A stretch of DNA of 36,838 nt from Leucosporidium creatinivorum (Eukaryota; Basidiomycota; Microbotryomycetes; Leucosporidiales; Leucosporidiaceae). The notes beneath the pieces were generated by a model. It worked only from the letters and a program-made list of their open reading frames with translations. It made no database searches and was not told the origin of the DNA. The translations under genes were made by a program, and so were the position numbers. Shown here piece after piece: positions 1 to 28,949 of the stretch; within the stretch, counting starts at the first letter, position 1; every line of letters starts with the position of its first letter. Location of the stretch: positions 249,475 to 286,312 of the forward strand of contig BCKL01000019.1 in NCBI GenBank assembly GCA_001600635.1, written 5' to 3'.

Positions 1-1403
1 ATACCGCTCAAGACTCAGCGCAACTGCACGATAGCAGCGCTCCTCGTCGGCCTCCTTCTCTTCCTCAGCGGCACTTGGCGACAGCGCACCCACCTGCCCA
101 GCTTCGACTCGCTCTCCTCAGAGCCTTACTGCGCCAGCGATCAGCTTGCTGTAGGACAATGGCTACCGATACAGGTCGACGCTCGGACTTGGCCCATCCT
201 CAAAGAATCGGCCGGCTACCTCTGCAGCGACAACAGGCATGCCTTGATGTGCTTCGACAATCAGCCTTCGCAGCTCCCTCGCCTCGCAGCAGCCAACAGC
301 TGGCGATGGAAGCCAGACAAATGTGCTCTACGATCCTTCAACTCGGCGGCGCTCAACTATCGTCTCGGCGCCAATGCGCGCAAGGGAGCCAAAGGCCGAG
401 GGATCCTGTTCGTCGGCGATTCGCTGCAGCTGCAGCAAGTGCAGTCGTTCGAGTGTTTGATGGGGAGGCATGTACAGGAGGGCTACATCTCAGACTATGA
501 GGTCGGCAGCTTGGAGTTGACAGAAGGAGCAGGAAAGCTCGAGTTCGTTCGGTGAGTGGTCAGGTCAGTTCGGCGCCGAGGATGGCGTGAGGCTGACCTG
601 GCTTCGATCCCTCGTCCTGACGCTATAGTACCGACTACGCCGTCCAGCCCGAAGAGTGGAGCCTCATGTACCCCGGAACCGAGGAGCCGTCAAATCACAC
701 TCGCTTCGACCGCAAGTGGACACATCTCGTCGAGGACAAGGAGTTCGTGGTGCTCAACACGGGCGCTCATTGGGGAGACCATCGGGTGAGTCCCTGCTCC
801 ATCTGTCCTCGCTTCGACTTTGACTGACCTCTGTCCTCACCGCTCCCCGTTCGCTCCCCTGCCTTCCTTCCCTTCTTGCGCTCTACTGTCGCCGCCTTAG
901 GCCTTGTGGATCGAACGCTACACCAGCATGGCCAAAGAGGTCATCGCTTTTGTCGACCGATTCCCTCACATCACCCTCATCGTTCGCACCTCGGTTCCAG
1001 GGCACACCAACTGCTCGCAATACTCGGCGCCGCTGCTGGAGGACGTTCCCGAATCGCACAACTCGTACAATTGGCAAGGATTCACCCTGTTCAACAACGT
1101 CTGGCGTGACCTCCTCGTTGACCATCCAAAGCATCTGCTGCTCGACGTCGGCGCTACGAGCCTGCGAGGAGACGGTCACCGGAATCCTGACGTCGACTGC
1201 CTACACTACTGCCTGCCAGGTGAGCTGCCACTGCCCTTCTTTCTCTTCTTTATCCATTTTCTCTCCTTCACACCCGTCTCCCCTCTCTCGTCGCCTCTCG
1301 AGCGTTGAGCTCACTTCTCGGCGCTCAAGCTGACCGTTTCGATATCGCAGGACCGGTCGATACATGGAATCAACTCCTCAACCACATCATCATGGGACTT
1401 TAA
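1..1403 (+). CDS. PC-esterase (PMR5/TBL-like) paralogue A, 5' end cut by window edge
   Basis: Probable membrane-bound polysaccharide O-acyltransferase or esterase of the PC-esterase (PMR5/Cas1p/TBL) group. Four exons: 1-551, 629-785, 901-1219, 1351-1403, giving 359 visible residues. The reading frame is open from base 1. The start codon is missing, and comparison with the two downstream copies suggests that only about 15 residues are lost. A hydrophobic segment (AALLVGLLLFLSG) near the N-terminus looks like a signal anchor. Block I is FVGDSLQLQ and the C-terminus carries DCLHYCLPGPVDTWN, closely matching the plant TBL motifs GDS and DCxHWCLPGxxDxWN that hold the catalytic Ser and Asp/His. It is the first of three tandem copies with the same intron positions and phases. 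Family is clear; acyl group and acceptor are unknown. Confidence 0.85.
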
Positions 1404-1797
1404 GTATCTAATGCCTACTCTTGCCGGGAAGAAGGGAACGAAGTGCTTGCTCCTCGCCTTCCCGCGAGTCGAGATGGAACGGCGCCGAGAAGGACGAAGG
1501 GGGGATCGATTCGAGGAGGAGGGGGAGGAGGAGCGGTGTTTGAAAGCCCGTCGTAATTTATCACGCACAGGATCCAATACCTCCCGCCTCGTGTTGAGAG
1601 CGATGCAGCTCAGCTCTGGACAAGCTGAGCAGGACCAGATTCGGCGCCGAGAAGAGGTCGAGCGAGCCGCGAGCCTACAGCTCTGCGTTACAGTATCGAA
1701 TGGACCTCGTAAACCGTCATCAGAGTACACCTGCTCTACATCAGCCGGCCAAGAGCCTTCCGCGACTCGAAATCTGGCTCTCCCACCTTCGCCCGCC
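1404..1797. other. Intergenic, upstream of PC-esterase B
   Basis: About 390 bp with no gene I can support. It holds the 3' flank of copy A and the presumed promoter of copy B. It contains two CGGCGCCGAGAAG stretches, near 1470 and 1650, of the motif that recurs through the window. A purine-rich AAGTGCTTG patch near 1442 recurs after copy B (near 3269), so the tandem duplication probably included flanking DNA. Confidence 0.5.
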
Positions 1798-3232
1798 ATG
1801 TCGTCTTCTCCCTACGCAAGCCTGCGGTCTCAGCGGAGCAGCCGCAACTATACCTTAGCAGCACTAGCCCTTGGCCTCGTCCTCGTCCTCACCGGCACCT
1901 ATCATCAGCGAGAACGACTCCCGACCCTCTCGCTCGTCGCCCTCTCCCGCCAGCGCTACTGCACCAACGATCAGCTCTCGGTGGGTCAAGGCCAGTGGGA
2001 GCAGGTGGAGGTCGATGCGCATACATGGCCTCGCCTCAAACAGTCGGCAGGCTACCTCTGCAGCGATAATCGGCACGCCCTCATGTGCTTCACCAACGAC
2101 GCGACTCAGCTCTCTCGTTTAGCCGCTTCCAACAGCTGGCGGTGGAAGCCCGAGGGATGCGCATTACGGCCATTCGACGCTGAGAAGCTCATTCGGAGGC
2201 TGGGCGATAATGCGAGGAGAGGGAAGAAGGGCAGCGGCATCTTGTTCGTGGGGGATTCGCTTCAGCTGCAGCATGTTCAGTCGCTCGAGTGCTTGGTGGG
2301 GCAGTATGTGGAGGAAGGGTTCATGACGGATAAGGAGGTGAATGGCCTACTGTTGGCAGAGGGAGCAGGGAGGTTGGACTTTGTTCGGTGAGCCTCGCTT
2401 CTTTGGCGCCGAGGAGTGGTAGGCCCGTTCGAGAGCTTGGCTGAGGACGATCTCGTTACATACTACAGGAGTGACTATATCGCGCAACCAGAGAACAACT
2501 ACGCCATCATCATGCCCGAGACGGAAGAGCCCGGAGACATCGGTCGGTTCGTTCGGAAATGGACCCATCTCGTCGAGGATAAGGAGTTCGTCGTGCTCAA
2601 TACGGGCGCTCATTGGGGGGGAATGTCGGTGAGCTGCATCCCGGACTCTCTCTGGCGCATCTCCCACTGACCGTCTCTTTGCGCTCCTCCCTCTTCGCCC
2701 GTTCGCCGAACTTCCCTCCCATCCCCTCGCTTGCACACCAAAGGACCGCCATCTCGCGCTGTACAAGAGCGTGGCCCAAAATATCATCTCCTTCATCGAC
2801 AGGTACGAGCACGTCACGCTCATCGTCCGAGGCTCAGTGCCCGGGCATGTCAATTGCTCTCAATACTCGGCGCCTCTCCTCGACGCTGATGCCGGCGTGC
2901 ATGCCGCGTACAACTGGCGGGCATTTGAGCACTACAACGCGATTTGGACGGAACTCCTCGACTCGCATCCTCGGCATCAATTCCTCGACGTCAGCGCGAC
3001 GAGCTTGCGAGGAGACGGCCATCGCTTGCCCGACAAGGACTGCCTCCACTACTGTCTCCCCGGTGAGCTGCTACGATTATTCTACTCCCTTTCGCCTCCC
3101 CTTTGATCTCCGGTGTCCCCCTCTGATCCCCCTTCAAACCTGAGCTCGCTTCTCGGCGCTGACCCTCTCGACCTTGCAGGACCTGTCGATACTTGGAACG
3201 TTCTGCTCAACCACATCATCATGGGGCTGTGA
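1798..3232 (+). CDS. PC-esterase (PMR5/TBL-like) paralogue B
   Basis: Complete copy of the tandem family, 373 residues, exons 1798-2387, 2469-2628, 2744-3062, 3180-3232. The start ATG leads into a basic tail and one membrane segment at about residues 19-34 (LAALALGLVLVLTG), as in type II Golgi enzymes. Block I is VGDSLQLQ with Ser154. The C-terminal DCLHYCLPG supplies Asp349 and His352 as the presumed rest of the triad. Between them lie the shared stretches THLVEDKEFVVLNTGAHW and TLIVRGSVPGHVNCSQYS. Intron phases are 2, 0, 1, identical to copies A and C. The last exon codes only for the 17 residues after the catalytic motif. By family, plant TBL proteins acetylate wall polysaccharides and Cryptococcus Cas1 is needed for capsule O-acetylation. 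The acceptor here is unknown. Confidence 0.9.
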
Positions 3233-3667: not shown

Positions 3668-5053
3668 ATGTCGTCTGCTCTCTACACCAGCCTACTGTCT
3701 CGGCGGGACAATCACAGCAACACACTACCAGCTCTTATCCTCAGCATCCTCGCTATCGCCATCTTGGCTTGGCTACAGCGAGAGCGGCTCCCTTTGCTCA
3801 GCTTGAGCGTGCTGGCCATCCAGCGCTACTGCACCAACGAGCAGCTTTCGGTCGGGCGCTGGGAGTCGGCTGAGATCGAACCTCATACTTGGGCTCGTCT
3901 CAAAGCTTCAGCGGGCTATACATGCGCAGACGACCGCTGGGGCTTGAGATGCTACTTGGAGGACAACGCTCAGCTTCCTAGACTCGCAGCGGCCAACAGC
4001 TGGCGGTGGAAACCTCAAGGATGTATTATTCGGTCTTTCGAGGCCAGCAAGCTTATACATCGTTTGGGCGCCAACTCGCGCAACGGAGTCGAAGGGAGCG
4101 GCATCCTCTTCGTCGGCGACTCCCTTACGCTGCAGCACGCTCAATCATTCGGGTGCCTCGTCGGCCAATATGTCGATACAGGCTCTCTCTCGGACATGCC
4201 TACCGAGAATGGTCTGGTGCTCTCAGTGGGAGCTGGCAGAGTCGATTTCGTCAGGTGCGCCGAGGTGGCGGGGCACTGGTGACCTGGGCTTTTCATCGGC
4301 TAACGGGTGATGTCGTCTTTTACAGGAGTGACTCTATATCTCAGTGCGGGAGCGACGGCCGCTACAGCCTCTTGCTACCCGAGACCGACGGACCCGACGA
4401 GGCCGGCGAATTCACAAAGAAGTGGACGCACCTAGTGGAGGACAAAGAGTTCGTCGTACTGAACACTGGGGCTCACTGGAGGCTCAACACCGTAAGATCT
4501 TACTGCTAGAACGTGAGCGAGTCGGCTGACCCGTCCTCGCTGCGCAGGAAGCTGACTACAACACGTATCGAGGAGTTGCCCAAGAGGTCCTCACCTTCCT
4601 CGACCGTTATCCTCATGTCACCCTCATCGTCCGAGCAACCGCACCCGGCCACATCGACTGCTCTCGATATTCGGCTCCCCTCAACCACAGCCTGACTTCG
4701 TTCGCCTACAACTGGGGCGACTTCGACAAGTACAATCAAGTATGGAAAGATGCACTTGCTTCACATCCCCGTCACCATTACCTCGACATCTTTGGCGCAA
4801 CGAGCCTGAGAGGAGACGGCCATCGAGATCCGGATGTCGACTGCTTGCACTACTGCCTACCAGGTTAGCTGGGACATCTTTCTCGCCTGTACTTTCTCTC
4901 CTTCCGCTCCCCTTTTCTCCCTTTTTCCTCCAGCTCAAACCACTCTGTTCTCCCTTCTCTACTCGAGTCTCCGCTAACTTTCGGACTTCTCACGCGGCAG
5001 GTCCCGTCGATACCTGGACCATCCTCCTCAATCACTTGATTATGGCGCTGTGA
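3668..5053 (+). CDS. PC-esterase (PMR5/TBL-like) paralogue C
   Basis: Third tandem copy, 373 residues, exons 3668-4254, 4326-4491, 4548-4863, 5001-5053. The N-terminus MSSALYTSLLSRRD precedes a membrane segment (LILSILAIAILAWL), again a type II anchor. Block I FVGDSLTLQ carries Ser152, and DCLHYCLPGPVDTW near the end gives Asp349 and His352. Exon phases match copies A and B, but sequence is more diverged (for example ATAPGHIDCSRYS where B has GSVPGHVNCSQYS), so this copy probably split off earliest. It is convergent with the gene at 5474-7108. All catalytic residues are kept, so I read it as functional. The donor of intron 3 is GTTAGC rather than the usual GTGAGC. Confidence 0.88.
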
Positions 5054-5473: not shown

Positions 5474-7108
5474 CTAACAAGTCGTATCCCATCCCTGCAC
5501 TGCTTTCCTAAGGTAGTACAACACCATGTCGGCAAAGAGATATGTTGGTTGAGAGAGGGGCTTGACGTGCATGACATCGGCTGCGGAGAAGCGAGGCGTT
5601 AGTGAGCGAGCTCTGCGGAGGGATTGCCGGGGCGTGAGACTTCAAGAACGTACCGTAATCTTCCTCGCCAGTCAAGAGCTCGGCCCCTACGCACGATACA
5701 GACGTCAGCCAACGGCGCAAAGGACGTCGAGGCAGCTGCACGAAGTTCGCGCGCGGACAAAACGAGGACAGCCCCGTCGACCAAGGAGAAAAAAGCCGAC
5801 ACTCACAGGGGAAGATGGGGATGCCGAGGTAGTCCATCAACGTCTTGGCCGACTCGTTCATTTGGTAAAGCGCCACGTTGCCTCCTCCCTGGTTATTAGC
5901 GCGCTCTTGACCTGCGAGAGAATGAGGCATGAGCTCGGCGTTCGAACGAGGTCGAATCTCGAGCGAGAACTCACCTAGCCGGAACATGATAGGCACATCA
6001 GGGAAGCGTTTTTGGAAGAGCCGTACATAGTCGGTGAGGCGGGCACGATGCCACGCCAGCTCGGTCCAAGTCATCGGCCTGGTCACGCGCTGAAGCTCCC
6101 ACGTCCAGCCGTACTGTGTCGCATGATAAGGAAAGTAGCGAAGATCCCAGTAGATGGATTGGAGGATGATGAGGTCGGGCTTGCCAATCTTGACAAGGTC
6201 GGGCTCGAAGACCTCGCCCATGCGCTCTTCGAGAAAGAAGGGAGGCGGGTTGTTCTCGGCGGGCTTGAGATGGGGGCCATACCACTGCTCCTTCTGCTCG
6301 GCCATACCGTAGTGGAACCACGAGCTGACGGTCAAGTTGAGTCCCTGTGGGCGACCAACGGAGCGAAGCAGGTGAGCGGTGAAGGTCGACTCGGAGCGGA
6401 GCGCCAACCTTCGCATAGCGAGATGCAAGACTCAGCAGGACTTACAGGTAGCGTGCAGCGCGCAGTGACGTGGGCTCCCTTCGACGATAATACAGCACCC
6501 GAATCCTTGTGCTGAGCGCAGAATCCCTCAACGTTTCGGCGATCATGGCTGCGAGGTGAGGGAGGTTAGGCGCGTTCGAGCAGGCTTTGAGTCGCAACCG
6601 AGCGCACCTATCGCCAACAGAAAGTATCGTCCTCCCTCGAGCGAAGTCGAGCTCGGGAGCATCCTGCAGGTCACCTGAATCCTTGATCCATTGGTTGAAG
6701 CTCGGAGGAGCTGTAGCCAGCTTCGCAGTGGGAGGTTTGAGCTCGTTGATGAGCTGTATTGGTCCTCCTTGTAAGTCTTCCTCGTCGTAAGGGATCCACC
6801 TGCAGCACACTATCCGTCAGCTCGGCGCGCCCGTCTCAAGCCAGCCCGTCTCGTCCTCACCGGATCTCGGCGGGCGTATGACCTCGGTAGATGTCTGTTG
6901 GAGAGATGAGTGAGTCAAATAGATCTACCAGAAGGAGCGCTTGCTCCCACTCACATCCTGGTCGGTTGTAGGGATCTGAGCAAGTCGAAAGGAGAGGCGA
7001 GCGTCGCGTGCGCTGCTGGCGCAAAGTGAAGGCCAGGACGAGGCAGACAGTGACGACACCTGCTAGCGTGTAAGCCCGTTGGTGTTTTGGCGGTTTCAGC
7101 GACACCAT
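5474..7108 (-). CDS. PC-esterase-like protein, SHDRRN subtype, copy 1
   Basis: A 365-residue SGNH/PC-esterase-like protein in eight exons (minus strand): 7108-6955, 6894-6861, 6799-6608, 6548-6446, 6344-5975, 5911-5807, 5686-5654, 5580-5474. A short basic tail and a hydrophobic segment at residues 15-29 suggest a type II anchor. Block I reads TILSVGDSHDRRNVEGFC with Ser127; an intron splits the Ser codon. The C-terminus has ADVMHVK with Asp332 and His335, a D-x-x-H as expected for this fold. Exon 33 nt long (5654-5686) codes for the LLTGEEDY stretch. The model is supported by the paralogue at 15728-17509, which has the same phases at seven introns. Its start lies 87 bp from the start of the divergent SGNH gene. 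Substrate is unknown; a carbohydrate O-acyl group is likely. Confidence 0.85.
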
Positions 7109-7195: not shown

Positions 7196-8641
7196 ATGCT
7201 GCAGCGTCGCTCGCTGCTCGTAGCAGGGTTTATTTGCAGCTTCTTCCTGCTGCTGCTGCTGCTACGACCTCCAGCAGCGCCTCCCACGCCTCGAAACGTT
7301 CAACTGCAGCTCCAACTCGTTCAGCAGCTCGTCGAAGGACAGGCGCTCACGTTGGGCATCCTCGGCGGCTCAATATCACGCCAGGAAGGAGGATACGGCG
7401 CTCAAGTAGTCGACTGGCTAAATCGCAACTGGCCACCAGAGCGAGGAGCCCACTCGCTGGTCAACGGCGCCGTCGCCGCCTCCGAGTCGAGTCTCGCTTC
7501 AGTATGCTACGATACGCTGCTGCAGCAGGACGCCGATTCCTCGAGGATCGACCTGCTCATGATCGAGTACTCCTACAACGATGCCGCCAGCCCGGAAACC
7601 GCTCGCTCGGCGTTCGAGTCGATCGTTCGGCAGGCGCTGTTTCGCACCTCGGCCGTCGTCTCGGTCGAGTTTGCAGGCTATTCGCACAATCGAGGGCATA
7701 TGGAGTCGGGCAAGGCCACCAACGACTTCCAGAACAGCGTCGGAAACCTGCACGCCGAGGTCGCAGCGCAGTACTCGGTGCCCATCGTCGATGTAGCTCG
7801 ATACTTCTTCGCCTACGCCTACGCCGAACGCCTCATGAACTACACGGATGGTATTCACCCCAACGTTGAAGGCCACACACTGGTCGCAACCCTCGTCATC
7901 GAAGAGCTCGTTCGGCTGGTAGCCTCGACGGCCGAAGGCGCCGAGTGGCTTCGCAGCAAGTCTATCTCCGCCAACGGTCCGAGCTGGCTCCATCCTCCTC
8001 CTTCCACTTCATTTCGCGACAACTCCCGTTACCTCCCATCCCTCAGTTCCAACGCCTCTTACCTCTCCCCGACCTCAGTCAGCGCCGAGCTATCCCCTCT
8101 GCCACCTCCATCCTTCTCTCTCCCTTCCTCATCAACCCCTGACACCTTTAAATGGTCCTGCGCAATCTCACAAATTGCCTCCACCGTCTCGACCCTCCGC
8201 CAATCCGCCATCGTCACCCAAGGCTTCCTCTACGGCCACGACGAGAGCGATGGCGGTCCCTTCCGCTCTCGCGCGCGTCCCGGCTTTCGCACCAACTCTA
8301 CCATCGACGAGGGAGATGAGGAAGAGGGCCATCTCATCTTCTCGCTGGGGAAGGCAACGGAGGTCAAGAGGGTGGCGCTGCTGTATCGAAGGTCGTGGCA
8401 GCCGAGCGGGAAGGCGGTGGTCTGGGTTGATCAGAAGGAGCGATCAGATGGCAGTACAAGTCGATTAGGCGGGTGTGAGAGGCGTGTGGACGGTCAGTGG
8501 GAAGCTGAGACGACTCAAATGGTACTGGAGGTCGTCTGTGGCGACGGGGAGGTTGAGTGGAGCGAAGAGGCGGAGCTTTTTATGCATGTTGTAGCGCGGC
8601 GGAAGGATTATTTCAAGGTGTATGGGTATGCCAAGGGTTGA
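7196..8641 (+). CDS. SGNH-hydrolase-like membrane protein with C-terminal extension
   Basis: Single-exon gene, 481 residues. The start is the first ATG of the frame, followed by a basic MLQRRS and a leucine-rich anchor (residues 8-23). The SGNH blocks are in order: LGILGGSISR (Ser59; GGS instead of GDS), VNGAVAASES (block II Gly), MIEYSYND (block III Asn128) and TDGIHPNVEGH (Asp218, His221). The catalytic set is therefore complete. A low-complexity Ser/Pro linker (about residues 260-320) leads to a 160-residue C-terminal domain of unknown family, with alternating hydrophobic strands (EVKRVALLYRRSW). It is the only intronless gene in the cluster, which may mean a different origin. It is probably an esterase or acyltransferase acting on glycans in the secretory route; substrate unknown. 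Confidence 0.82.
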   Translation: MLQRRSLLVAGFICSFFLLLLLLRPPAAPPTPRNVQLQLQLVQQLVEGQALTLGILGGSISRQEGGYGAQVVDWLNRNWPPERGAHSLVNGAVAASESSLASVCYDTLLQQDADSSRIDLLMIEYSYNDAASPETARSAFESIVRQALFRTSAVVSVEFAGYSHNRGHMESGKATNDFQNSVGNLHAEVAAQYSVPIVDVARYFFAYAYAERLMNYTDGIHPNVEGHTLVATLVIEELVRLVASTAEGAEWLRSKSISANGPSWLHPPPSTSFRDNSRYLPSLSSNASYLSPTSVSAELSPLPPPSFSLPSSSTPDTFKWSCAISQIASTVSTLRQSAIVTQGFLYGHDESDGGPFRSRARPGFRTNSTIDEGDEEEGHLIFSLGKATEVKRVALLYRRSWQPSGKAVVWVDQKERSDGSTSRLGGCERRVDGQWEAETTQMVLEVVCGDGEVEWSEEAELFMHVVARRKDYFKVYGYAKG

Positions 8642-9074: not shown

Positions 9075-11537
9075 ATGAGTTCGCTGTCAGCTCGGGGGGC
9101 TGCTCTGCCTGCACTGGCCCTTACGGGTGTAGTGCTGCTGCTCTACCTCCTCCTCGGCCCTTCCACCGTCGCCCTCGCCCATCCTCGCGCCCTCTTCTCG
9201 CGACCAACCTCGAGCAGCTCGTCGCCTTTAACTTGGTACGATTACGAGCGGATTACCAGCAAAACCAGGACGGATAAGCAAGTAATCGCTCCTTTACATC
9301 TACACCACCTCGACGAGTTCCGAGCACCAGCGCCCTTCAACTACATCCATGCCGTCTCCGCCTGGCTCGACTCGCGACCGCTCCTGGCAGCTCGAGCGCC
9401 CGACGTTACGATCCTGGCGACGATGCAGGGGCAGCCCTACATGACAGTGCCCGAAAGCACCTTCAGCTCCAATCCGGTGCACTGCTACCTCGTCGTCAAG
9501 CACCGCCAGTCGGGAGTCGAGGAGGTCATGGTCACGCCGAGCGTTCTCGTCGGGCTTCGCGATTCCCACTCGTACGATAAGGATCTCGTTACAGTCCTGT
9601 TCACCTGCCCGCTGGAAGATGAGCAGGGTGAGAGCCTCGAGTGGAGAGATGCAGACATGTGAGTCCGCTGCGTTTGTTGTTGGGCGCCGACGAGCTTCCG
9701 ACGAGCGAGAGATGGCTGACTTGGGCTCGGACTTATTGCAGCTTCGTCACACTATCATTACCGACACTCCCTCCTCCCGCCGACGTCTTCCTTCCCGTTA
9801 CGCCGCTCCCTGAGCTCAACCCCGCCAAGCATGTCACGGGTCAAGGACGCGGTGCTGTCTGCCTGCCACCTCTCTCGACCGACCTCTACGCGCCAGTAAT
9901 GCGAGACTTTATTCAGGTGAGCTCTGTTGCTGCTCTCCCGCTCAATGCGGACGCGCCGAGCTGACCTCCGCTCCCTCCGACAGTACTATCGCGGACTCGG
10001 CTTCGACCAGTTCTACGCCTACCTCCTCGATCCTGGACCAGACACGCTCGAGGTCATCCGAGAGCTCGTAGCGGACGATCCTGGCTTCCTGCCCATCCGG
10101 TGGGGCCTTCCCAAGACGTGGATGAAGAGTGGGACCTACCTCCAATCGCCATCTCGAGACTTTCGCGTCGAGCCCTACGACTGGAAGGTCCCTGGTGTCG
10201 AGGAGCTTTCACTCGACGTCGAGTTCAATCTCGGAGTCTCCACCGACAACGAGCGAGACGTTCGCATTTGGTGAGTTAGGCTCGCTCGTCGGTTCGGCGC
10301 TGGTCTCGGCGAGCAACCTCTCATTCATTCTCTCGCTCCTCAGGTACTTCGGCCAACACCCAGCTCAGCAGGATTGCGCCTACCGAGCCATGGCCGACGG
10401 CATTCGCTTCGTCGCCAACGTCGACTACGACGAATACCTCTCCTTCATGCCCGCCAAGCAGCAGAGCTGGTCGTCCCCCTCCTCTTCCTCCGAATCACCC
10501 ATGAGCGCTTTTGTCGACTGGGCTCGCTCGCTTCAGCCAGCATGGGATGGATCCCGCCCTCTCGGCGAGAAGGGAGTTCCCATCGCCATTGAGCACTCGC
10601 TCGCCGGGGAACTCGACCTCGACGTCTGGGAGATCACCAAGGGCATGCTACCTTCGGGCTTCGTCTTCCAATCGTCGTTCATGTGCGTCAAGTGCAGACC
10701 GGCCGACCCTCCACCAGCCGACGCCGTCGCCGCCATCACCTCACGTTTCCCTTCGCTCGACTGGAGGACTCCAGGACTCGGTGGCGTTCCCCTCGCCTTC
10801 TCATCGCCTGTTCGCATGGACTGGCTGCCTATACCTGTTCGTAGCAAGGCCGTTATCGACCCCTGGTACGTCTCGGCTTGCGCTTATCTCATCGAATCGC
10901 TTTCGCTGACCCGTTCTCTCATCGCAGGGCATGGCATTCGGGCGTCATCCACTACCCCGGTGTACCCTACGTCACCTGGGCCCTCCAGCACGGCTTCTGC
11001 TCCTCCTCGGCTGGAGAAGCCTCGCGCTCAAGCTCCGACAGCGAGTGCGCGACCGCCCTCCTCCTCGCCCTCGGCTCCGGCTCCATCCCCATTCGCCCGT
11101 CTCCTGCCACCGCACCAGGATCGATCTGGCAACCACTCGACTCGGGTCGAGGAGCTCTCTACCACGTTCGCGTCAACAAGGACATCTCGGTCGACAATAT
11201 CGAGCTGATGCGGCTCGGCAACGGCGGCGCTCGGCAGGACGTCGTCTCGGGCGAGAAGGCCAGCGAGCTCTTTCGCTCGCATCGGGTAGAGAAGGATCAA
11301 TGGCTCGAGGCCTACCGCATTTTGCTCTACTCGAGCACGGCCGAGGTCGAGCTGTACGAGGACTGGAGTCTGGCGACCTTGATGGCGGGAGCGCTGCTGG
11401 AGAACTTGGAGGAGAAGACGGGGAAGGCTGGGGGAGGAGGGGCTGGATGGGGATGGATGGCGGGCGTGGGATCGCTGGTAGCTATCGGAGTTTGGGTTGC
11501 TGGTCGGTCAAGAGGGAAGCAGGGCGTGGGACTTTGA
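9075..11537 (+). CDS. GT92 (DUF23-like) glycosyltransferase
   Basis: Predicted 725-residue glycosyltransferase of family GT92, in five exons: 9075-9658, 9742-9916, 9984-10270, 10344-10865, 10928-11537. Known GT92 members are galactosyltransferases (animal GALT-1, plant GALS). An N-terminal hydrophobic segment (ALPALALTGVVLLLYLLLG) suggests a signal anchor, and a second hydrophobic stretch sits near the C-terminus (MAGVGSLVAIGVWVAG). The family pattern is visible: DFIQ-YYRGLGFDQFYAYLLD, then QQDCAYRAMADGIRFVANVD with the metal-binding DYDEY (Asp376, Asp378, Glu379), and a downstream AWHSGVIHYPG. The Asp-rich motif and the spacing from YYRGLGF fit the GT-A fold. The glycine-rich loop near residue 690 and the tail are poorly conserved types of sequence. 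Donor sugar is inferred, not shown. Confidence 0.85.
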
Positions 11538-17938: not shown

Positions 17939-19535
17939 ATGTCGACGCACGGAACAACGCACCTTGAGGGCTACTCGAAGCTACCGACGCGGGGTGCAGA
18001 GCTTGTTCATCCTGTCCCCAAGTCTCATCGTCGACGACATCGGTGGCTTTGGCTCTGCATCGCCTTCCTTCTCATGATCCTCTCCATCTCGGCGCTGGTA
18101 GTCCTTCACCCGCAATCACAAGAGCAGCTCAGACGTATCTCGCACTTCACCCTCGCAAGGCAGTACAACACGGCTGTAGGACCACGCTCCTACTCGCACC
18201 TCTACCAGGGTTGCACTCTCAAGCAGCTGCTGCTGGAGCTCAAGGAATCGCGGATCAAGGACGACGCGCCGAGCAGGACGGCCAACTTCAGCCTCCCGCC
18301 TTATGACCCCACCGATAATGGTCCACCGCCGTTTGCAGGCTTCTCCTTCGACATGGACACCTGCCCTCCCCCGCACGTCTTCTCTCGAGATCAAGCCTGC
18401 GACCTCATCGCCAGCTTCGGCGCTCTCATCCTCAGCGGCGACTCCTTCATTCGGCACGTCTGGGACGCCCTTCTTATCTTCTTGACTGGTGAGCTCAACA
18501 TCTGCTGTCTGAATGCGGGTGAGAACGCGCAAGCTGACCTTTCGCCGAACTTTGACAGGCGATCTCTCCGGCGCTGTCGTCGACCCTCAGGATCGCGCAC
18601 AATGCCGCGGCGAGCACCTCTTCAACGACCGCGAGTTCAACAACTTCTCTGCCATCACTCCATGTCGCCTGGGAATCTTCAACGAGCTGGAAAGCTTGCC
18701 AGGCAACGTCTGCGGAGGGCGTGAGATTCGGGGCAAGCGGTTCATCGGGCTCGAGTCGTGAGTAGCGGTTCATGTTCAGAAGGCGGCTCGACCTGATCTT
18801 CTCTTGCCCCCACTCCGCTCACCTCCAGGGTCTCACTCCCCTCCCTTCTTGCCTACATCACCACTCTCCCGCCCGCCTCACAACGGCGCTCGCCCGTGCT
18901 GCTCTTCGATGGTGGGGTCCACATCCACTATCAACTCAATCTCACCTCATCCGACTTCCTTCTCCCGGTTCTCAACCTCAACTCCCACTTCTCCCCTCCC
19001 ATTGTGCCCATCTGGCAAGGCTCGCATGCCCCCGGCGACAACCTCGCTGCTCCCTATTACGATTCGCAAGGTCGAACGGCGGTCAAGAGCTACATTGCAG
19101 GTGTGGAGAGCAGAATTATGGAGAATCAGAAGGTCTCGAGTGTGGTGGAAGGAGCGTTGCTGCGCATGTCATGGTACAATGTTAGTCGAGGGGCTTCGCC
19201 GAACCGCCGAGCATCACTCGCTGACTTCTACTCGGTCCATAGGCAACAGAAGGAGGCAAGTCTAAGAGTAGTCTGCTGTGTAGAGCCATTAGCTGACTGG
19301 CTTTCTCTCTAATCTCTCTCCCTCGCCGCACAGCCGACTCTTTCGACGGCCAGGTAAGCTCGGCCCTCCCCCTCTTTTCCTTCCGTCATCCTCGCTCACA
19401 AGCTGACTTCCCTCTCCACTCTTCCCGCCACAGCACTACAGCTACCAAGTCAACACGGAGAAGATGTACACCCTTCTCACTGTTCTCGACCTCGTTTGGC
19501 ACGAAATTGAGGCAGCGGGCGGCCTCGTCGAGTAG
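17939..19535 (+). CDS. PC-esterase-like protein, GDSFIRH/DGQH subtype
   Basis: A 411-residue type II membrane protein. Exons: 17939-18488, 18559-18757, 18829-19180, 19243-19255, 19334-19353, 19434-19535. A basic tail (PKSHRRRHR) precedes the membrane segment WLWLCIAFLLMILSISALVVL (about residues 36-56). Block I is LILSGDSFIRHVW with Ser169. The presumed Asp/His pair is Asp376 and His379 in FDGQHYSYQVN, and an intron separates Gln378 from His379. Cysteine-bearing stretches (GCTLKQ, TCPPPHVF, AQCRGE, TPCRLG, NVCGG) suggest disulphides in a secretory-lumen domain. Exon 4 is only 13 nt and is followed by a GC-AG intron; this choice is needed to keep frame. It belongs with the fungal PC-esterase-like proteins, but I cannot name a subfamily. 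It sits 5' of, and codirectional with, the NXPE-like gene. Confidence 0.78.
19243..19255 (+). other. 13-nt microexon followed by a GC-AG intron
   Basis: GCAACAGAAGGAG lies after a CCATAG acceptor and before GCAAGT. AG|GCAAGT is the classic consensus of a GC donor. It joins WYN to ATEG and then ADSFDGQ in frame. No GT donor nearby keeps the phase required by the next exon. Confidence 0.6.
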
Positions 19536-19756
19536 GGGATGGTCTAGCGAGCAGCATGGGAAGGCTGTGAACAAGTTGTGTAGTCGCTTACAGTACGCTT
19601 AGAGTCTATGGAGGTTCTTGACCCACCACAGGATGTGATGAAAGCTATGCTACTTGCGAAGAGGTGCAGTCTTCTGTCAGCGCCGAGTCGAGAGTTGAGA
19701 GGGCTTCGACCTCACCGAGATAACCTCATATCCAGCTGTGCCTAGGCTCGCTGTTC

Positions 19757-21152
19757 TTGAGAGCTGATCACGGCTCGCTAGCCCCCTCATTCACCCTCCT
19801 CTTCCTCATCCCCGACCTTCAACATGGCATCTCGGCAAGGATAGCTCGCCATCGCGGTGGAGGTGCAGCCCTCGCCCTTGCCCCCCATATCTACTTTGGC
19901 GACTCGCCGCACTCACCACCGCGTCTCTGGGGGCCAGGACTGTCCAACGCACGGCAGAACGTTGCTGCCACCTTCTTCATCGACTCTGACGAGACCAGGG
20001 ACTCGCCGTTAACGATCAATGAGACCATCTCGGTAGTCCTCGAAGGGCCAGCTCGCTTCGCCGCCTCGGTCACCTACGCTGGAGGAGGTCGCTTCGTTGC
20101 CACATGTACACCCTATGACGCTGGCACCTACACCCTACGCACCGACATCTTCCGGCGCTCTCTTCGCTACTCGCCCTACCCCTACTGGTGCCCTCTCGGC
20201 CTCGACAGCTACTCTGTCACTGTTGCTCGTCAAGACGGCTCGCTCGCTCGAGGATCCGGTTATCAAGAGATCGTCTTCCCTTCGGAACGCTGCACGGGAG
20301 AGGAGGACACGGCCGAGGGCCGCTGGGTTCGCTGCAAGGATACCCCCCTCGCCTGCGTTTGCTACGGCTGGATCTGGCTCCCTCGGCCGTGCTACTTCCA
20401 CATTTACAAGGCCGACGAACTCGCCGAACAGGACCTCTGGATCGCCGTCGTCGGTACCTCTGTCTTCCGAGGCATCTTCTTCACTGGGCTCAACCACCTC
20501 ATCGGCAAGCGCGCCGCCAACCTCTCGGCGCCGACCTCTTGGTTCTGGAAGTGTTGGGGACGCTTCTCGGCTGAGACGCGACAGGTTTGCCTCTCCTACC
20601 TCGACTTTCGGGAGGAGTGCACGTCCCGAGGCAACGAAGGCATCTGCCTCGGCGAGTACTTGAAGGACACCGAGAAGATGCTCGGCCTCTTGGGCAAGGA
20701 GAGGGCGGGGAAAGGGCCGGATCTTGTCCTGTGGGAGATCAACTATGCGCGAGCAGCCAACGTGGATACCCTTCCTCGGTATCGGCAATTCCTCAGCGAT
20801 GCTTGGGACGGCACCTTTATTGCCTCTTCTTGCACCCATTCCCCCGAGGTGGTCTACGAGCCGGACCTTGTGAAAGAGCTCATTTGCAAGACTTCGACCG
20901 AGCCTGAGAACCAGGTTGAGGCCATGGACATGTACGCAGTCTTGGTCTGCACCCTCGGCAAGTGCAATCGAGCTGATCTGTTCTTGCTTCCCCTTTGCAG
21001 CTCGACCATGGGCGCCAGCATGTTCGACACTATGGAGTTCCCACTCAATGTACGAACCTCTTTCCACTGGCATGGTCAGTGCAACGCCGCTGGCATGCAT
21101 TCCTGCTCGCCTGTGTAAGTTCGGCGCTGGCGCCCTCTCGCTCTCTCTCTCT

Positions 21153-21183
<31 letters not shown>

Positions 21184-22754: not shown

Positions 22755-24808
22755 ATGCGCGTTCGACAACTCTCGCGGGGGATGAGCAGCGCCCTGCTCG
22801 CTACTCTGGTTATCTCCCTCTCCCTCTCCGTTTGGTGGCATCGGCGCCATCAACCTACAGGGAGCAGACGGAGCTCGTTCAGCCTCTCGACCTCGTCGCT
22901 ATGGACTCGGGACCGGTCACGGCTCGCCATCGTGCTGCCCTTCACCGCGGGCGACGTAGAGCACCAGCTGGACAATATGGAGCTGTGGGCCTCGATGGGA
23001 GCACCGACGCGGCCGCAGGATGCAGGCAAGGTCGACCTGCTGTTCTACTACAACCGCCTGGAGGAGAAGGAGGCGACCGGCCTCCTCGAGCACCCTCGGT
23101 TCCTCGAGTCGTGGAAGACGCTCAGCAAGTCGTTCAAGAGCTACAGCCTCGTCTACGCCAACCTGACCGACATTGAGGACATCTACCCCGCTGGACCATC
23201 CAACATGTTCTTTAAGCTCTTCCTCGACAACCATCTCCGCTCCCTCATCGCCCCTTACGTCGCCATCTACTGGATGGAGTGGGACGTCTTCCCCATTCGT
23301 CCTCATTGGGCTTCCCAGCTCCTCCTCGAGGCCAGCGGCGGCGAGCCGTTCTGGCAGAAGGGCTCCATCTACCTCGGCCGCGCCTTCGACGGCTCCGTCA
23401 CCTTCGCCTTCAACTGGGGCTGGGTCGCCCACATCAACGGCAACGCCCTCTATGCGACCGACGACCCGGAATGGCGCACCTTCCTCGAGATGGTCATCGA
23501 TCAAGAACCTCCCAACCACTACTGGAAGCCCTTCGACGTCTCCATCGCCAAGGTCTTCCGCCATCTCCCCTACGCCTGGCAATGGCAGCAGAAGTACAGC
23601 GGTCGCTTCCAGTACTCGGACTTCGTCGTTCACTACGGCTTCACCATCCTCGACGAGCAGATCCAACAAGCGCTGCAGAACCCCGACACCTTCCTCATCC
23701 ACGGCAAGCGCGGCTCGGCGGGCAAAGTCAAGTACGACACCAAGATGGGCAACACGGCGGCCATCTCGCAGGTGCAGTGGGGCGATGAGGTACCAGCGTG
23801 GATGAAGTTGTCGGTGAGTAGAGCTTCTAATCGCGCTCGTGGCGAGCGAGGAGCTTTCTTCGGCTTCGTTTGAGCTCGGCTGACCGTTCTCGTTCTCTTC
23901 CACCACGTTCGCAGGTGCTCATCCGTACCTTCAGAGGAGACGTCGAGTACGCCGTCCTGGCCGCCCTCTCCGCCTCGATCCACATCGCCAACGCTCTGGA
24001 GATCGTCATCGTCGTGCCCGAGGAGGACCTCGCTCTCTTCAAGACCAAGACCTGGCCCGCCAACGCTGTCCTCAAGGGCGAGCCCGACCTCCTCCCCAAC
24101 GGCCACATTCAGCAGAAGTACACCAAGCTCATGGCCGACACCTACTGCGCCGGCGACTACATCCTCCACCTCGACTCCGACACCGTCATCTACCGCCCCG
24201 TCCTGCGTAAAGATCTCATCTGGGAGGGACGACCATCCATCCTCTACGCTCCCTACGACACCCTTCCCGAAGCCGCGCAAGCATGGAAAGAGGGCACTTC
24301 GGCGGCCATGGCCTTCCCCGTTGAGCACGAGTTCTCGCGCTCCGCCGTCCACATGTACCATCGGTCGACCTACTCTCACGCCCGCAAGTACATCGAGGAC
24401 GTCCACGGCACCACCTTCGTCAAGTACCTCACGACCAGGATCGGGAAGAACATTGGAGTCCTCGGCACGGCCGAGATGTCGAAGCGCTACTTCTCCGACT
24501 TCAACTACCTCGGCGCGTACCTCTACTACCAGGAGCACGAGTCCATCACCTGGGTCCCCGCTTGGGAGGAGCCTCGCAACAACGCCCTCTTCCCCATCCT
24601 CCCGCCCTTCATCTGCCAAGGCAACGCTCGACTCGCCAGCGCCGTCGACCTCCAGAAGGGCAACATGGACGCTGTGGCGGAGCTACGCAAGCGCTTGACG
24701 GTCGCCATCTCGTCTGGCCGTTGCTACGAGGTGGATGCATTGGTGCAGAGCTGGGAGGCGTGGGCGGTGGAGGTGACGGCCAGGGAAAAGCCGTCGACGA
24801 ATCATTGA
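22755..24808 (+). CDS. Two-domain GT-A-like glycosyltransferase
   Basis: A 650-residue type II membrane protein in two exons, 22755-23813 and 23915-24808. The anchor follows MRVRQLSRG (SALLATLVISLSLSVWW). The first half has LAIVLPFTAGDVEHQLDNM, KVDLLFYYNR and YWMEWDVFPIRPHW (Glu175-Trp-Asp177), which looks like a GT-A nucleotide-sugar domain. The second half, which is exactly the second exon, has VLIRTFRGDVEYAV, IVIVVPEEDL, GHIQQKYTKLMADTYCAGD and LHLDSDTVIYRPV with a clear DxD (Asp440, Asp442). It resembles the DUF6492-type nucleotide-diphospho-sugar transferases. The intron falls at the domain boundary, suggesting a fusion. It is probably bifunctional; sugars are unknown. It converges with the GT43 gene. 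Confidence 0.82.
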
Positions 24809-25138
24809 GGGAGATGAGGCGGTCGAGCAAGGGGGTTCGGGCGTGGTCCTTGATGTTGTGGGGTCGGGTCGCTGTAGAGAGGAATCCAGGAAGCGGGGTT
24901 TCGAGGGCGAGGGTAGTGGGGGATGCGCATGAAGTTGGGGCCGACGACCGAAGATGATGATTGCTGCTGTACTCTTATTTATCCTTGCATGACCATACCA
25001 GCTAGATTTCACGACTGACTGTCCATTTGCATCGCGAAAGTCGCCCCTACTTCATCAACGAGGTCGTGTCTCCTTGCAGTGCACCCTGAAGGCTCGCCTG
25101 TACTCGGACCGTCGACATGGCTCTACTACACAAGCTTG
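24809..25138. other. Convergent intergenic region
   Basis: About 330 bp between the stop codons of the two-domain GT and the GT43 gene, presumably both 3' UTRs. Nothing else seen. Confidence 0.5.
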
Positions 25139-26157
25139 TTACAACAATCTACCTCTAGGCAATGTACTATTAGCCCAACTGAACCCTCTAGCCACCTCTC
25201 CCTCGCTGATCAACCTCCTACTCATCACCCCCTCGGTTCTCCAATCCTGATCATAGAACGCCGCCTTGTAGAAGGGCACAGAATGATCGTGCCACACGTA
25301 CACTTGGTCTATCAGCCGCGGGAGGAAGGTGAGAGAGGCGTTGAGCGCCTCAAACTGCTCTAAGAGATCCGTCTCGAGGTAGCCGGTTTCGGCGAGGGGG
25401 TTGAAGGCGAGGGAGGGGAAGAAGTGGAGGAGCGAGGCGTGGAAGGCAAGACCGCCCATGTCAACGTTCCATCGTCGTCGACAGAAGTCGCAGCACCATT
25501 GCTGGATCTGTACAAGGCCAGTGTCGTCCTGCTCGGCGGAGGTGGAAGACGATCCTTCGGCGGCGACGAGGACGGGCCCTTCGAAGCCAAAGTAGCCGGT
25601 GTTACCGACGGGGAATACGGTATAGCTATCCTTGGGTATCCTGGCGAGCTCTAGCAGCAGCTCGGGCCGCAGGGCGTTGTCGTCGTCGGCGAAGTAGACG
25701 ATGCCGTCCAGCCCTTCTCGGCGAATGAGCTCGAGGGCTCGGTTCCTCTGCGCGAGACCTCGGTGCTCAGTGTTGGGTGGTGTGTGTTGGTTTATGTAGC
25801 GATGGGGGATGTTGGATCGGTGTACGAGGGAGAGAATGGCGGGGTCGGGAACGGGTCCGTCTTCGACGAGGAGCCATTCGAGCCGAGGGGCATGAGGGAG
25901 TGAGAGGGCAGCTTGCAAGGTGAGTTGTAGGTGTAAGACATCGGCGTAGCGGGTGAGGCGGTCGTAAGTCTGCAGTTGAGCCGAGTGAATAGCTGCTGCT
26001 AAGCGAGATGAGACGGGAGAGGCGGGAAAGAGCTCACGGGAGTGACGACGATGACTAGCGGAAGAGGTGTAGTAGCAGGATATAGCAGCTTGAAGGATAT
26101 CAGGAATAGTACTGCTACGCCGAGCAGCAGCGGAATCCCTCGACGAGCAGCGCTCAT
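25139..26157 (-). CDS. GT43 beta-1,3-glucuronyltransferase-like protein
   Basis: A compact 316-residue GT43 protein in two exons (minus), 26157-26038 and 25969-25139. The ATG at 26157 opens a basic tail and an anchor (IPLLLGVAVLFLISFKLLY). The intron joins VIVVTP to TYDRLTRYADVL, restoring the family's VTPTYxR start. Then come LEWLLVEDG, TEHRGLAQRNRAL, VYFADDDNALRPELL (Asp135-137, the metal-binding triad), YTVFPVGNTGYFGFEGP, WNVDMGGLAFHASLL and a late ETDLLEQFEAL. All GT43 landmarks are present. Animal members transfer GlcA in the proteoglycan linker and HNK-1, and plant members serve in xylan synthesis. A longer upstream open frame exists, but it lacks the VTPTY junction. It lies head-to-head with the GT64 gene, 83 bp apart. 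GlcA as donor is likely but not proven. Confidence 0.9.
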
Positions 26158-26240
26158 CCCCTTTGAGCAGACGCGACGAAGGCAAGAGAGAGAGAAGCTT
26201 AGGTTTGACTTCGGCTCGTTTCTCGGCGCCGAAAAGGAGG
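26158..26240. promoter_or_regulatory. Short divergent promoter (83 bp) between GT43 and GT64
   Basis: 83 bp separate the two start codons. The spacer contains a GA-rich run, GACTTCGGCT at 26207-26216 (shared with the spacer before 15728), and CTCGGCGCCGAAAAGG next to the plus-strand ATG. No TATA box seen. A shared promoter is inferred. Confidence 0.6.
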
Positions 26241-28949
26241 ATGGCCAAGTATCGCCTGACGAGAGGATTCTTGCTGTGCTGTACCTTGCTAGCAGTCACT
26301 CTGTACCTTCTCCTCTCGCCTGGCTCCACTTCGACCAACTCGCGCTCCTCGACCTCAGCTTCACGCGCTCGTAACGGCAAAGTCACGATCCTCCTCTCGG
26401 CCTATCGCACTACAGGTCTTCGACCGCAATGGATACACGACACGGCAGCTCTGTACACCTCGGCACACTTCCAGCACATCGTCGACCGCGTGATTCTCGT
26501 CTGGAACGAGCCCTCGGCGCCTCCGCCTCGCATGCCCAGCGGCGTACAGGTCATCAATGGCAAATTCAACAGCATGAACAATCGGTGTGTCAAGCGCCTG
26601 CCTCTGCTCTACGGTGATCGCTAATCCTCAGCTTCGGGTCGCGCAGATGGATCCTCTCGCTGCCCTTCATCCGCACCGACGCGGTCCTCGTACTCGACGA
26701 TGATATCTCCGTCTCGCTTGTGAGCTATGCACCTCTTTACCACTGCGCCGAGGCCTCACTGACTCTCGCTCTTACAACTCTCGGCGTTCGTCTCCTCCGC
26801 GCATCCCCTCCCTCCATCCTCTCCCCTTCTCCAATCGCCTCGCACCTTCTTTGCCTCCCTCTCCGCTCCCATTCGCCACCCCAGCCCGCCCTCACCTGCC
26901 TTCTCTCCGCTCATCAGGAGCACCCCGACCGACTGCTCGGCCCTTTCGCCCGCCGCCGCGACCCTCAAACCAACGAATACATCCTCAACGAGCTACTCAC
27001 TCTTCCCGGGGAAGGGAGTAGATATAGCATGGTCTTACCAAGGGTGATGATGCTTAGTGTGGGGTTTCTGGCGGCGTATGGAGAGCGGGAGGTGGGATTG
27101 GAAGGGTTGAGGGAGTATGTAGATGAGCAGGAGGTGAGTTCAGTGTTGCTGGTGGGCTAGCTGGAAGTGCTGGACGCTAGGGCTGCTGCTGCGAGGCCCG
27201 TAAAGGGCAGGGAGAATCACAGCTGACTCTTCCCTGTACCTCTTTTCATCCCCGTCCGGCCGTTTTCCCACATCCGCCATCGTGCCTCTTATCTTCCTCA
27301 TCCTCAACGTCCGCTTTACGCTTCCTGCCATCCTCCTTTCACCGTCGGCGATTCCCCCATCCTCGGCGATGCCTCCCACCCTCGGCGATTCTTCACCTCG
27401 GCAAAGGCCCATTGCGACGACATCCTCCTGAACGCACTCGCCGGCTACATCACCGGCAAGCCTCCACTACGGATAGCGCTGCCACCGAGCAGCATTACTG
27501 ATTATACCGCTGTCTGTGGGTGAGTGAACACCTCGCCGGGAGAGGAACGGGGGGGCGAAGAGCTCCATCTGACTGTACGCTGACGATCTCCCTCTTCTCT
27601 CCTCCTATTTTCCCCCTTCTCTCTTTCTCTTCCCGCTTCCGCCTCCCTACATCGCTCCTCCACGCCATCTGCGCTTTCTTCGCTCACTCACCCGCCGCCG
27701 TTGCCGCGCTCGCTCATGCACTTCGCTCTCACGTTGTCTCCATCACACGCCACCTTGCTCCTCGCCGTTCGCCCTCCCCAGTCCACTCGACCGCTCCCTC
27801 ACTTCAGGTCTCGCCGACCAAGGCTCGCGCTGGGATTTACGGACCGAGTGCATGAGGAGGATTATCGGTGGAGAGGGGAGTGAAAGATTGAGTTTGAGTC
27901 ATAGTAGTACGCAGGTGGCCGTTTGTGAGTTTCCCTTCGCACACTTGAGCCGATCGGCGGGGGGAGGAGAGCGAGCCGAGCGCCAGAATCGAGAAGACGG
28001 CTCGGCTTCAGCTGACTCTCGTCTGGTTCTTCCTCCACTCTCTGCTCATTCCCTCCCTCTTCTGGGTCTAACAGGCAGCAGTAACGGCTCAACCTACGAG
28101 ATCAAGAACAAGGTGGCTCACTCGCGCTGGCGGTCGATGGCGACCCTCACGGCCCAAGACCTCTGCCCGGATCTTCTGTGCGTCAGACTCTCTTCTCTGC
28201 TGCTTCCTTTCGTCCTCCGCGATGCTAATCCTGACTTGCAATACTTCTCATTTCAACTTCCCACTTCTCTTTCCCCCGCGCTTGCTCGCCGCCTCGCCAG
28301 CAACCTGGATGCCTCCCTCCTCGGTCCCCGCTCCGCACTTTCCGACCGTTCCTCCCTAGGCCAGCAGATTGAGGAGTATTGTCCGGCCGTCAACCCCGCC
28401 ATGAGCGAGTGGATCTCGGCGCTGGAGGAGCTGCCGATGTGTGAGGGGTTGGGGAGTGGAGCGGGGAGGGACAAGGAGATGTTGAAGAGGCTGGTGGAGA
28501 GTGCTAAGCACCAGTGTGGGAGTTGGTGAGTCTTGTTTCTCTTGCTGCTGAGTCCCCGCCGAGTCAAGGTTCTTGAGGGGCAGGTGCATCTGAGGGGTGC
28601 TGTGGTACAAAGTGGGCTTGCTGACACCTCTCCTCCTCTCTTCTCCCCGTCTTTCACCCCTTTCCCATTGCTATGCTCTGTTTCTCGCCCCTCCCCGCCC
28701 CAATCTGTTTGTTCCCCTCCCTCGGTCCCCTCTCCTCTCCTACAACCTCTCCTTCTCACCCAATACAGGTGCATCTGGGACCTCCGCTCCCCCTCGCGTT
28801 CGGGCTGGTACCTTCTCAAGTCAGGCTCCTCTTCCTCACCAAAAGGCTGCTTTGACCGATTTGAGGAGGAAGATGGACCATATAGAGCTTGTGACGGGTG
28901 GTGGTGGCAGAAGCCAAGGGTTTTGTTGGATGGGACTGAGGAAGAGTGA
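26241..28949 (+). CDS. GT64 (exostosin-like) glycosyltransferase with C-terminal extension
   Basis: A 476-residue type II membrane protein in eight exons: 26241-26584, 26647-26719, 26885-27133, 27407-27519, 27782-27924, 28075-28177, 28301-28525, 28769-28949. The anchor is LLCCTLLAVTLYLLLSP. The GT64 signature is in order: KVTILLSAYR, HIVDRVILVWNEP, KFNSMNNRWILSLPFI, AVLVLDDDISV (Asp132-134), EHPDRLLGPFARR, MVLPRVMML, AHCDDILLNALAGYITGKPP. GT64 proteins are HexNAc-type transferases in animals. After the GT64 core, roughly 210 residues (from about 263) form an extension of no family I know. It is cysteine- and tryptophan-bearing, ending GYLLKSG-like then CDGWWWQKPRVLLDG. Acceptors of exons 3 and 5 were picked to keep frame; other choices break it. 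It starts 83 bp from the divergent GT43 gene. Confidence 0.82.
27339..27400 (+). repeat. Short (TCGGCGAT)n-type repeat inside a GT64 intron
   Basis: Three close copies of CGTCGGCGATTC / CCTCGGCGATGC / CCTCGGCGATTC, followed by CCTCGGCAAAG, lie at the 3' end of the 273-nt intron 27134-27406. The last partial copy abuts the splice acceptor. Confidence 0.65.

Follow-up and report, generated by a model that had tools for sequence, protein, structure and literature searches.

A run of thirteen genes for putative glycan-building and glycan-acylating enzymes in the basidiomycete Leucosporidium creatinivorum

Few physical clusters of surface-glycan genes are known in fungi, the galactosaminogalactan (GAG) cluster being one documented case. 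A stretch of 36,838 nucleotides from Leucosporidium creatinivorum (contig BCKL01000019.1, positions 249,475 to 286,312 of the forward strand; the whole of it is called the window below) holds thirteen consecutive genes, here g1 to g13, in which members of the glycosyltransferase (GT) families GT43, GT64 and GT92 are joined with up to eight SGNH-type proteins. Do these neighbours serve a single pathway? We think that they probably do. At a probability of roughly 0.6, the cluster would serve to build and O-acylate, in the Golgi, a single glycan destined for the surface or for secretion, with the class of product, the compartment and the co-regulation all predicted from the genes. That product is most likely an O-acetylated glycan with glucuronic acid (GlcA) and N-acetylhexosamine, for which the donors, linkages and order of addition are likewise predictions. 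The gene cluster itself is real, and its left border lies outside the window.

Enzyme families along the cluster

We worked from the window itself, from Pfam and NCBIfam profiles, from PDB sequences and from published papers, which are cited for the parts available to us. Eight of the thirteen proteins (g1-g3, g5, g6, g7, g12 and g13) pass the curated Pfam cut-offs for glycan-enzyme families, and the family assignment of these eight is firm at the level of sequence profiles (Table 1). A preliminary description of the locus had placed every gene in a glycan family. This stands for the eight, whereas g4 and g9 have no Pfam match, g8 and g11 match below threshold, and g10 passes for a filamin repeat only. 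The same description had claimed a type II membrane topology nearly throughout; an N-terminal segment with a Kyte-Doolittle mean of at least 1.6 is present in ten of the proteins, and g2, g8 and g10 fall short of that threshold. The scan also marks an internal hydrophobic segment in g10 and g11.

The GT43 protein, g12, gives the clearest indication of a sugar. Its residues 35-269 align to beta-1,3-glucuronyltransferase 3 (B3GAT3, GlcAT-I) at 1.7e-17, and its four significant matches among solved structures are exclusively beta-1,3-glucuronyltransferases 1, 2 and 3. From the substrate contacts in human GlcAT-I, Taujale and Yin derived eight strict GT43 motifs, and a protein with a significant domain and at least three of the eight is counted in the family (PMC4449007). 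On this definition g12 is a GT43 protein with six of them, namely TPTY, WLLVED, QRN, DDDN, EGP and LET. These matches support the earlier view of g12 as GlcA-transferase-like, with its donor and acceptor predicted.

The GT64 and GT92 labels were also upheld. In the PDB, EXTL3 (1.5e-36), EXT2, EXT1 and EXTL2 are matched by the 240 C-terminal residues of g7, and EXTL3 (1.7e-8) and EXTL2 (2.2e-8) by g13. The GT64 profile PF09258 finds g13 at 6.3e-15 from its first exons only, and at 2e-22 with an approximate 3′ join. Both proteins keep the DDD and CDD motifs, in an alignment where g13 is gapped between the two. The first 650 or so residues of g7 comprise two segments with acidic motifs, THDDDLDYY and FLEDDIEVS; the first has no Pfam match and the second has sub-threshold ones only (DUF3841 0.049, GT2 0.065, GNT-I 0.15). 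The GT92 match of g6 reaches 27.9 bits, where the cut-off is 23. Finally, g11 is a possible glycosyltransferase of two halves: DUF6492 is matched below the cut-off by the whole protein (0.0028) and more closely by the C half, and the N half has no Pfam match. A PDB sequence search with g11 found nothing, a comparison of its N half with the g1-g3 profile gave nothing convincing, and single-sequence AlphaFold models of its exons were too poor to use (mean predicted local distance difference test scores of 33 and 41).

Among the putative acyl-modifying proteins, g1-g3 are the best characterized. They are 53-63% identical to each other (g1-g2 63%, g2-g3 58%), and carry the PC-Esterase domain with a GDS box and a DxxH motif in the form DCLH...DTW (in g1, GDS at residue 139 and DCLH at residue 335). 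In the plant protein TBL29, the serine of GDS and the aspartate and histidine of DxxH are essential (PMC6110886). For g2 the sole solved relative detected is ESKIMO 1, to which it aligns at WRW.P..C...GDSL; a second alignment, at DC.H.CLPG..DTWN, is weaker (0.18 on its own). The motifs, together with the ESKIMO 1 match, support the acyl-transfer potential that had been proposed for this group. A different family, Lipase_GDSL_2, is represented by g5, whose best solved relative is a GDSL-like protein.

The remaining four, g4, g8, g9 and g10, would be SGNH-like by motif only. The g4 and g8 proteins are 54% identical, share GDSHDRRN and have D-x-M-H near the end; their joint profile has no PDB match. 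The g9 protein has GDS and DGQH, and it too is without a PDB match. Neither the Pfam cut-off nor a profile match to g1-g3 puts g4, g8 or g9 among the PC-esterases. In g10 a W.W.P..C motif is followed by GTS, Pfam does not place the protein with the NXPE or PC-esterase families, the PDB search did not place it, and its sole passing match is the filamin repeat (27.0 bits, just over the cut-off of 26.9). Six PC-esterase-like proteins and one SGNH protein had been counted originally; the family search confirms PC-Esterase for g1-g3 and GDSL_2 for g5. NCBIfam searches with g4, g5 and both halves of g11 returned far sub-threshold matches, for g5 alone. No multi-pass acetyl translocator was seen among the thirteen proteins.

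The duplicated genes g1-g3 and g4/g8 are old, are under purifying selection and are still neighbours. The ratio of non-synonymous to synonymous divergence (dN/dS) by the NG86 method is 0.20 for g1-g2, 0.21 for g2-g3, 0.29 for g1-g3 and 0.25 for g4-g8, and 0.05-0.14 by maximum likelihood; the ratios are approximate and the duplications old because dS is above 1.2.

Gene models, borders and flank

The thirteen genes run from position 1 to about 27,925 of the window, and all but g5 have several exons. They were modelled with a gene finder, for which unambiguous reading frames served as the training set, and the models were then corrected by hand. The preliminary description was right about the number of consecutive genes and drew the block too far to the right, to position 28,949. 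On the left the window begins inside g1, which lacks its start codon, and beyond about 27.9 kb there are remnants of Copia-type retroelements.

The models of g1-g12 contain 48 introns, 47 of the GT-AG type and a single GC-AG intron in g9; the splice consensus was imposed by the modelling method, and these counts are therefore not independent evidence. More independent support comes from g1, g2 and g3, each with three introns of identical phase in identical order. Each of the seven introns of g4 has a phase-matched partner in g8, which was modelled with g4 in view. The less certain parts of the models are several small exons of g7, a gene in which some exon borders differed between modelling runs, the 3′ ends of g7 and g13, and the start codon of g10. 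Long poly-C tracts follow directly on g10 (about 21150-21300), with an N at 21299. As this is a possible weak point of the assembly, less confidence attaches to the last part of g10 and to the 1.6 kb that separate it from g11.

Are there any other genes among the thirteen? We scanned both strands of eight intergenic gaps and of 27,926-29,080 for coding potential, a set that excluded the 200-bp gap between g9 and g10 and the three divergent gaps, and no model outscored the highest-scoring of 15 shuffles. In leave-one-family-out controls the same scan recovered ten of the thirteen genes and missed g10, g12 and g13. It is thus a fair claim, though not an absolute one, that the scanned gaps hold no further gene. 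Neither Rfam nor ARAGORN gave a match anywhere in the window.

To the right, positions 29087-36838 hold Ty1/Copia-type retroelement remnants in both orientations. Two adjoining pairs of inverted-repeat arms lie between 29508-29811 and 31253-31557 (211 nt, 87% complementary, and 92 nt, 91% complementary); they probably represent a single element end that is present twice, once in each orientation. Similarity scans of viral contigs with g11, g7 and g2, and of genome contigs with the C half of g11, found nothing. One viral contig matched g12 over 135 bases around VYFADDDN (39% identity, E 3e-5); the contig otherwise contains small unrelated frames, and we judged the match to be due to chance.

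Table 1. Features of the window, with positions counted from its first nucleotide; figures that follow Pfam, PDB or family names are E-values
Feature	Position	Strand	Evidence and remarks
g1, PC-esterase/TBL-like, 359 aa, 5′ cut by window start	1..1403	+	exons 1-551, 629-785, 901-1219, 1351-1403; PF13839 2e-22
g2, PC-esterase/TBL-like paralogue, 373 aa, 4 exons	1798..3232	+	PF13839 7.9e-21; ESKIMO 1 6cci 3.3e-9
g3, PC-esterase/TBL-like paralogue, 359 aa, 4 exons	3668..5053	+	PF13839 1.9e-15 (earlier 357-aa model)
g4, SGNH-type by motif, 365 aa, 8 exons	5474..7108	-	VGDSHDRRN box, ADVMH; no Pfam match
g4/g5 divergent intergenic region, 87 bp between start codons	7109..7195	.	
g5, GDSL_2 SGNH protein, 481 aa, single exon	7196..8641	+	PF13472 1.9e-12; 6hfz 2.4e-7
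g6, GT92 protein, 725 aa, 5 exons	9075..11537	+	PF01697 2.3e-6; VDYDEYL DxD-type motif
g7, about 940 aa, 13 model exons, two acidic-motif N-terminal segments then GT64	11974..15638	-	PF09258 1.9e-49 at 670-910
g7/g8 divergent intergenic region, 89 bp between start codons	15639..15727	.	
g8, SGNH-type paralogue of g4, 355 aa, 9 exons	15728..17509	+	VGDSHDRRN, VDIMH; PF13839 0.057, below cut-off
g9, GDS...FDGQH protein with N-terminal anchor, 411 aa, 6 exons (one of 13 nt, GC donor)	17939..19535	+	motif; no Pfam or PDB match
g10, filamin repeat and PC-esterase/NXPE-like part by motif (W.W.P..C, GTS box), start uncertain	19736..21118	+	PF00630 8.4e-6
g11, two-part protein, 650 aa, 2 exons; C half DUF6492-like with LDSD	22755..24808	+	PF20102 0.00059 (C half), below cut-off
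g12, GT43, 316 aa, 2 exons (26038-26157; 25969 down to stop near 25139)	25139..26157	-	PF03360 7.2e-29
g12/g13 divergent intergenic region, 83 bp between start codons	26158..26240	.	
g13, GT64	26241..27925	+	exons 26241-26584, 26647-26719, 26918-27133, 27407-27519; 3′ part approximate near 27.8-27.9 kb
SH3-like polymerase domain	29087-29431	+	Pfam
RVT_2 reverse transcriptase	32012-33514	+	Pfam
Gag-pre-integrase, integrase core and SH3-like domain	within 34394-35876	-	Pfam

A probable single pathway and its alternatives

If the cluster encodes one pathway, membrane-anchored glycosyltransferases would act in sequence on a growing chain. The GT43 protein g12 would add GlcA from UDP-GlcA, the GT64 domains of g7 and g13 would add alpha-linked N-acetylhexosamine, g6 would add a galactose-like residue, and further sugars would be contributed by g11 and by the two segments at the N terminus of g7. 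The proteins g1-g5 and g8-g10 would transfer acetyl groups to particular hydroxyls, or trim them from these. The outcome would be a heavily O-acetylated exopolysaccharide or capsule containing GlcA and N-acetylhexosamine, or a large glycan of this kind on a mannoprotein. Among the thirteen proteins and ten other frames, Pfam scans detected neither a polymer synthase nor an enzyme that forms UDP-GlcA, and no transporter of nucleotide sugars or translocator of acetyl groups; the pathway is therefore not self-sufficient within the window. Chain initiation, the supply of UDP-GlcA and the translocator of the acetyl donor would be encoded in other parts of the genome or beyond the left edge of the window.

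Several results weigh against a single pathway of this kind. Five genes (g4, g8, g9, g10 and g11) lack an above-cut-off match to a glycan family and are placed by motif or sub-threshold match, and profile comparison with hhalign found no link between g1-g3 and g4/g8, g9 or g10 (probabilities 5.8, 0.2 and 10.2). The g10 model has AGMH in place of DxxH, without the aspartate, and has no N-terminal anchor. Two of the strict GT43 motifs are imperfect in g12, motif 6 reading VDMGGL and motif 8 reading WHDH. At the right edge g13 may be decaying, its uncertain 3′ end adjoining retroelement debris. The leave-one-family-out coding score of the full coding sequence is negative for g4, g5, g8, g12 and g13; since in addition only ten of the thirteen genes were recovered in the controls, a small or unusual gene could have escaped the scan. 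The evidence for selection is rough, with dS above the value given earlier and no result from YN00 for all four pairs. No 6-mer is common to all nine promoter regions compared; the commonest occur in seven of the nine, at 0.9- to 2.4-fold over gene bodies, a range given without a significance control.

A different use of the same enzymes is the alternative that survives best. Here the cluster would attach short, branched glycans, O-acetylated and bearing GlcA, to glycoproteins, glycosylphosphatidylinositol-linked mannoproteins or glycolipids, and no free polysaccharide would be made. The transmembrane-like N-terminal segments of ten of the thirteen proteins are what is seen in Golgi glycosylation enzymes, and a processive synthase or polymer export protein is absent from the Pfam scans. 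Furthermore, the human GT43 enzymes make a surface epitope as well as glycosaminoglycans (PMC4449007). Up to eight SGNH-type proteins are, on the other hand, many for a short glycan. The large capsule polysaccharide of Cryptococcus is also made with Golgi-type enzymes, which again weighs against the idea. We regard short decorations as unlikely.

The direction of the acyl chemistry could also be reversed. Were the PC-esterase and SGNH-type proteins mainly deacylating esterases, the cluster would remodel a glycan rather than acetylate it. The family was first predicted to consist of acylesterases (PMC2824669), and g5 belongs to GDSL_2, a family with known acetylxylan esterases (PMC9487903). But XOAT1, the one PC-esterase for which there are both a structure and detailed biochemistry, is an O-acetyltransferase (PMC9487903), and it is matched by g2. 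A cluster devoted mostly to deacylation seems fairly unlikely to us.

Could g12 instead be a xylosyltransferase, as GT43 proteins are in plants, and the product an acetylated xylan-like chain? GT43 with TBL-type acetyltransferases is the plant xylan pair, and g2 does match ESKIMO 1. We nevertheless hold this to be very unlikely: a published tree groups fungal GT43 with that of animals, in clade D (PMC4449007), the Trp-His of motif 8 is kept in g12 (which ends this motif in His where GlcAT-I has Arg), and no plant GT43 is among the solved-structure matches of g12, a point for which the presence of plant GT43 structures in the PDB was not checked.

Equally improbable is a neighbourhood made mostly by tandem duplication and chance, with no common pathway or regulation, for although the paralogue sets g1-g3, g4/g8 and g7/g13 reduce the independent families to about ten and no convincing shared promoter motif was seen, around ten different families or subfamilies are direct neighbours, no unrelated gene was detected among them, and members of different families are joined in every one of the three divergent pairs, which have 83-89 bp between modelled start codons. 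If about 2% of genes belonged to such families, which is an assumed figure, the probability of ten consecutive independent units by chance would be vanishingly small.

Comparison with known systems

The nearest precedent that we found is the GAG cluster of Aspergillus fumigatus, a set of five co-regulated genes, uge3, gtb3, agd3, ega3 and sph3 (PMC4817252). As proposed here, a fungal exopolysaccharide is made there from one physical cluster. The two differ in content: an epimerase, a deacetylase, a hydrolase and a spherulin-4-like protein are absent from the Pfam scans of the thirteen proteins, and in place of five genes there are 13, mostly for membrane-anchored glycosyltransferases and SGNH-type proteins. 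No paper on a cluster like the present one was among the literature matches listed, which is weak evidence of absence, given that these were titles and the starts of abstracts, that the matches often far outnumbered those listed and that several of the listings were mostly bacterial.

A second comparison is with the glucuronoxylomannan (GXM) capsule of Cryptococcus neoformans, also a basidiomycete, whose polysaccharide contains GlcA and is O-acetylated, as is predicted from the genes for the product here. To our knowledge, the capsule genes of C. neoformans do not lie in one cluster. The GXM families GT69 (CAP59/60) and GT90 (CAP10; names as in PMC8355462) were not found in our Pfam scans. O-acetylation of GXM requires Cas1p, a PC-esterase-family protein (PMC6110886, PMC9487903), and a review describes this one-protein machine as the fungal solution (PMC6110886). 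In Cas1p the SGNH part is fused to a multi-transmembrane acyltransferase. The g1-g3 proteins, by contrast, carry no more than a single anchor at the N terminus; because they are stand-alone proteins, the cluster hints at a split acetylation system. If it does encode one pathway, it would allow stand-alone, plant-like O-acetyltransferases to be tested in fungi beside the fused Cas1p type.

The plant xylan system (IRX9/IRX14 of GT43, with TBL29/ESKIMO1) likewise has GT43 beside TBL-type GDS/DxxH proteins. It differs in that fungal GT43 groups with the animal clade (PMC4449007), and GT47 was not found in our Pfam scans.

The closest solved relatives of g12 and of the GT64 domains belong to animal glycosaminoglycan assembly (GlcAT-I/B3GAT3 and EXT/EXTL), and both families are familiar chiefly from the polysaccharides of animal tissues. 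The Pfam scans of the thirteen proteins show no xylosyltransferase domain, nor the GT47 exostosin and sulfotransferase domains that go with GT64 in the heparan sulfate pathway. EXT and EXTL3 carry a GT47 domain N-terminal to GT64, and it is in this place that g7 has its two acidic-motif segments. One could imagine a clustered fungal assembly line for a glycosaminoglycan-like polymer, in which GT43 and the GT64 proteins alternate GlcA and N-acetylhexosamine, g7, with its two further putative glycosyltransferase segments, replaces EXT as a chain builder of several activities, and dense O-acetylation by stand-alone TBL-type proteins replaces sulfation. This is a speculative extension that we consider distinctly unlikely; if it were true, a fungus would possess a plant-like, split acetylation machinery, contrary to the one-protein view drawn from Cas1p.

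Other basidiomycetes hold parts of this inventory. The genomes of the lichen yeasts Cyphobasidium and Tremella were reported to contain GT47 and GT64, and an unknown acidic polysaccharide has been proposed (PMC8355462). These share GT64 in basidiomycete yeasts with the present case; the proposal was derived from family counts and, in the part available, not from a physical cluster, and GT43 occurs 0 times in that paper. By taxonomic lineage, Rhodotorula and Puccinia are Pucciniomycotina. Melampsora is another member of that group. Fungal GT43 is already published from all three: a table based on 2015 databases gives 21 GT43 proteins from outside plants and animals, of which seven are fungal, two from Rhodotorula toruloides (strains now so named), four from Puccinia graminis and one from Melampsora (PMC4449007). 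The R. toruloides proteins (EMS23236 and EGU10941) have 318 residues, against 316 in g12, and the Rhodotorula and Puccinia proteins are treated there as single proteins, with no cluster mentioned in the part available (PMC4449007). By themselves, the near-equal length and this distribution of fungal GT43 would make an origin of the window in Pucciniomycotina likely without proving it. Three of the P. graminis accessions (XP_003336238, 242 and 254) are numerically close, which, from the numbers only, may mean a local group of GT43 genes. If the genes described here do form one pathway, they would be defined knock-out targets for finding the products of fungal GT43, a family noted earlier in Rhodotorula and Puccinia, and of fungal GT64.

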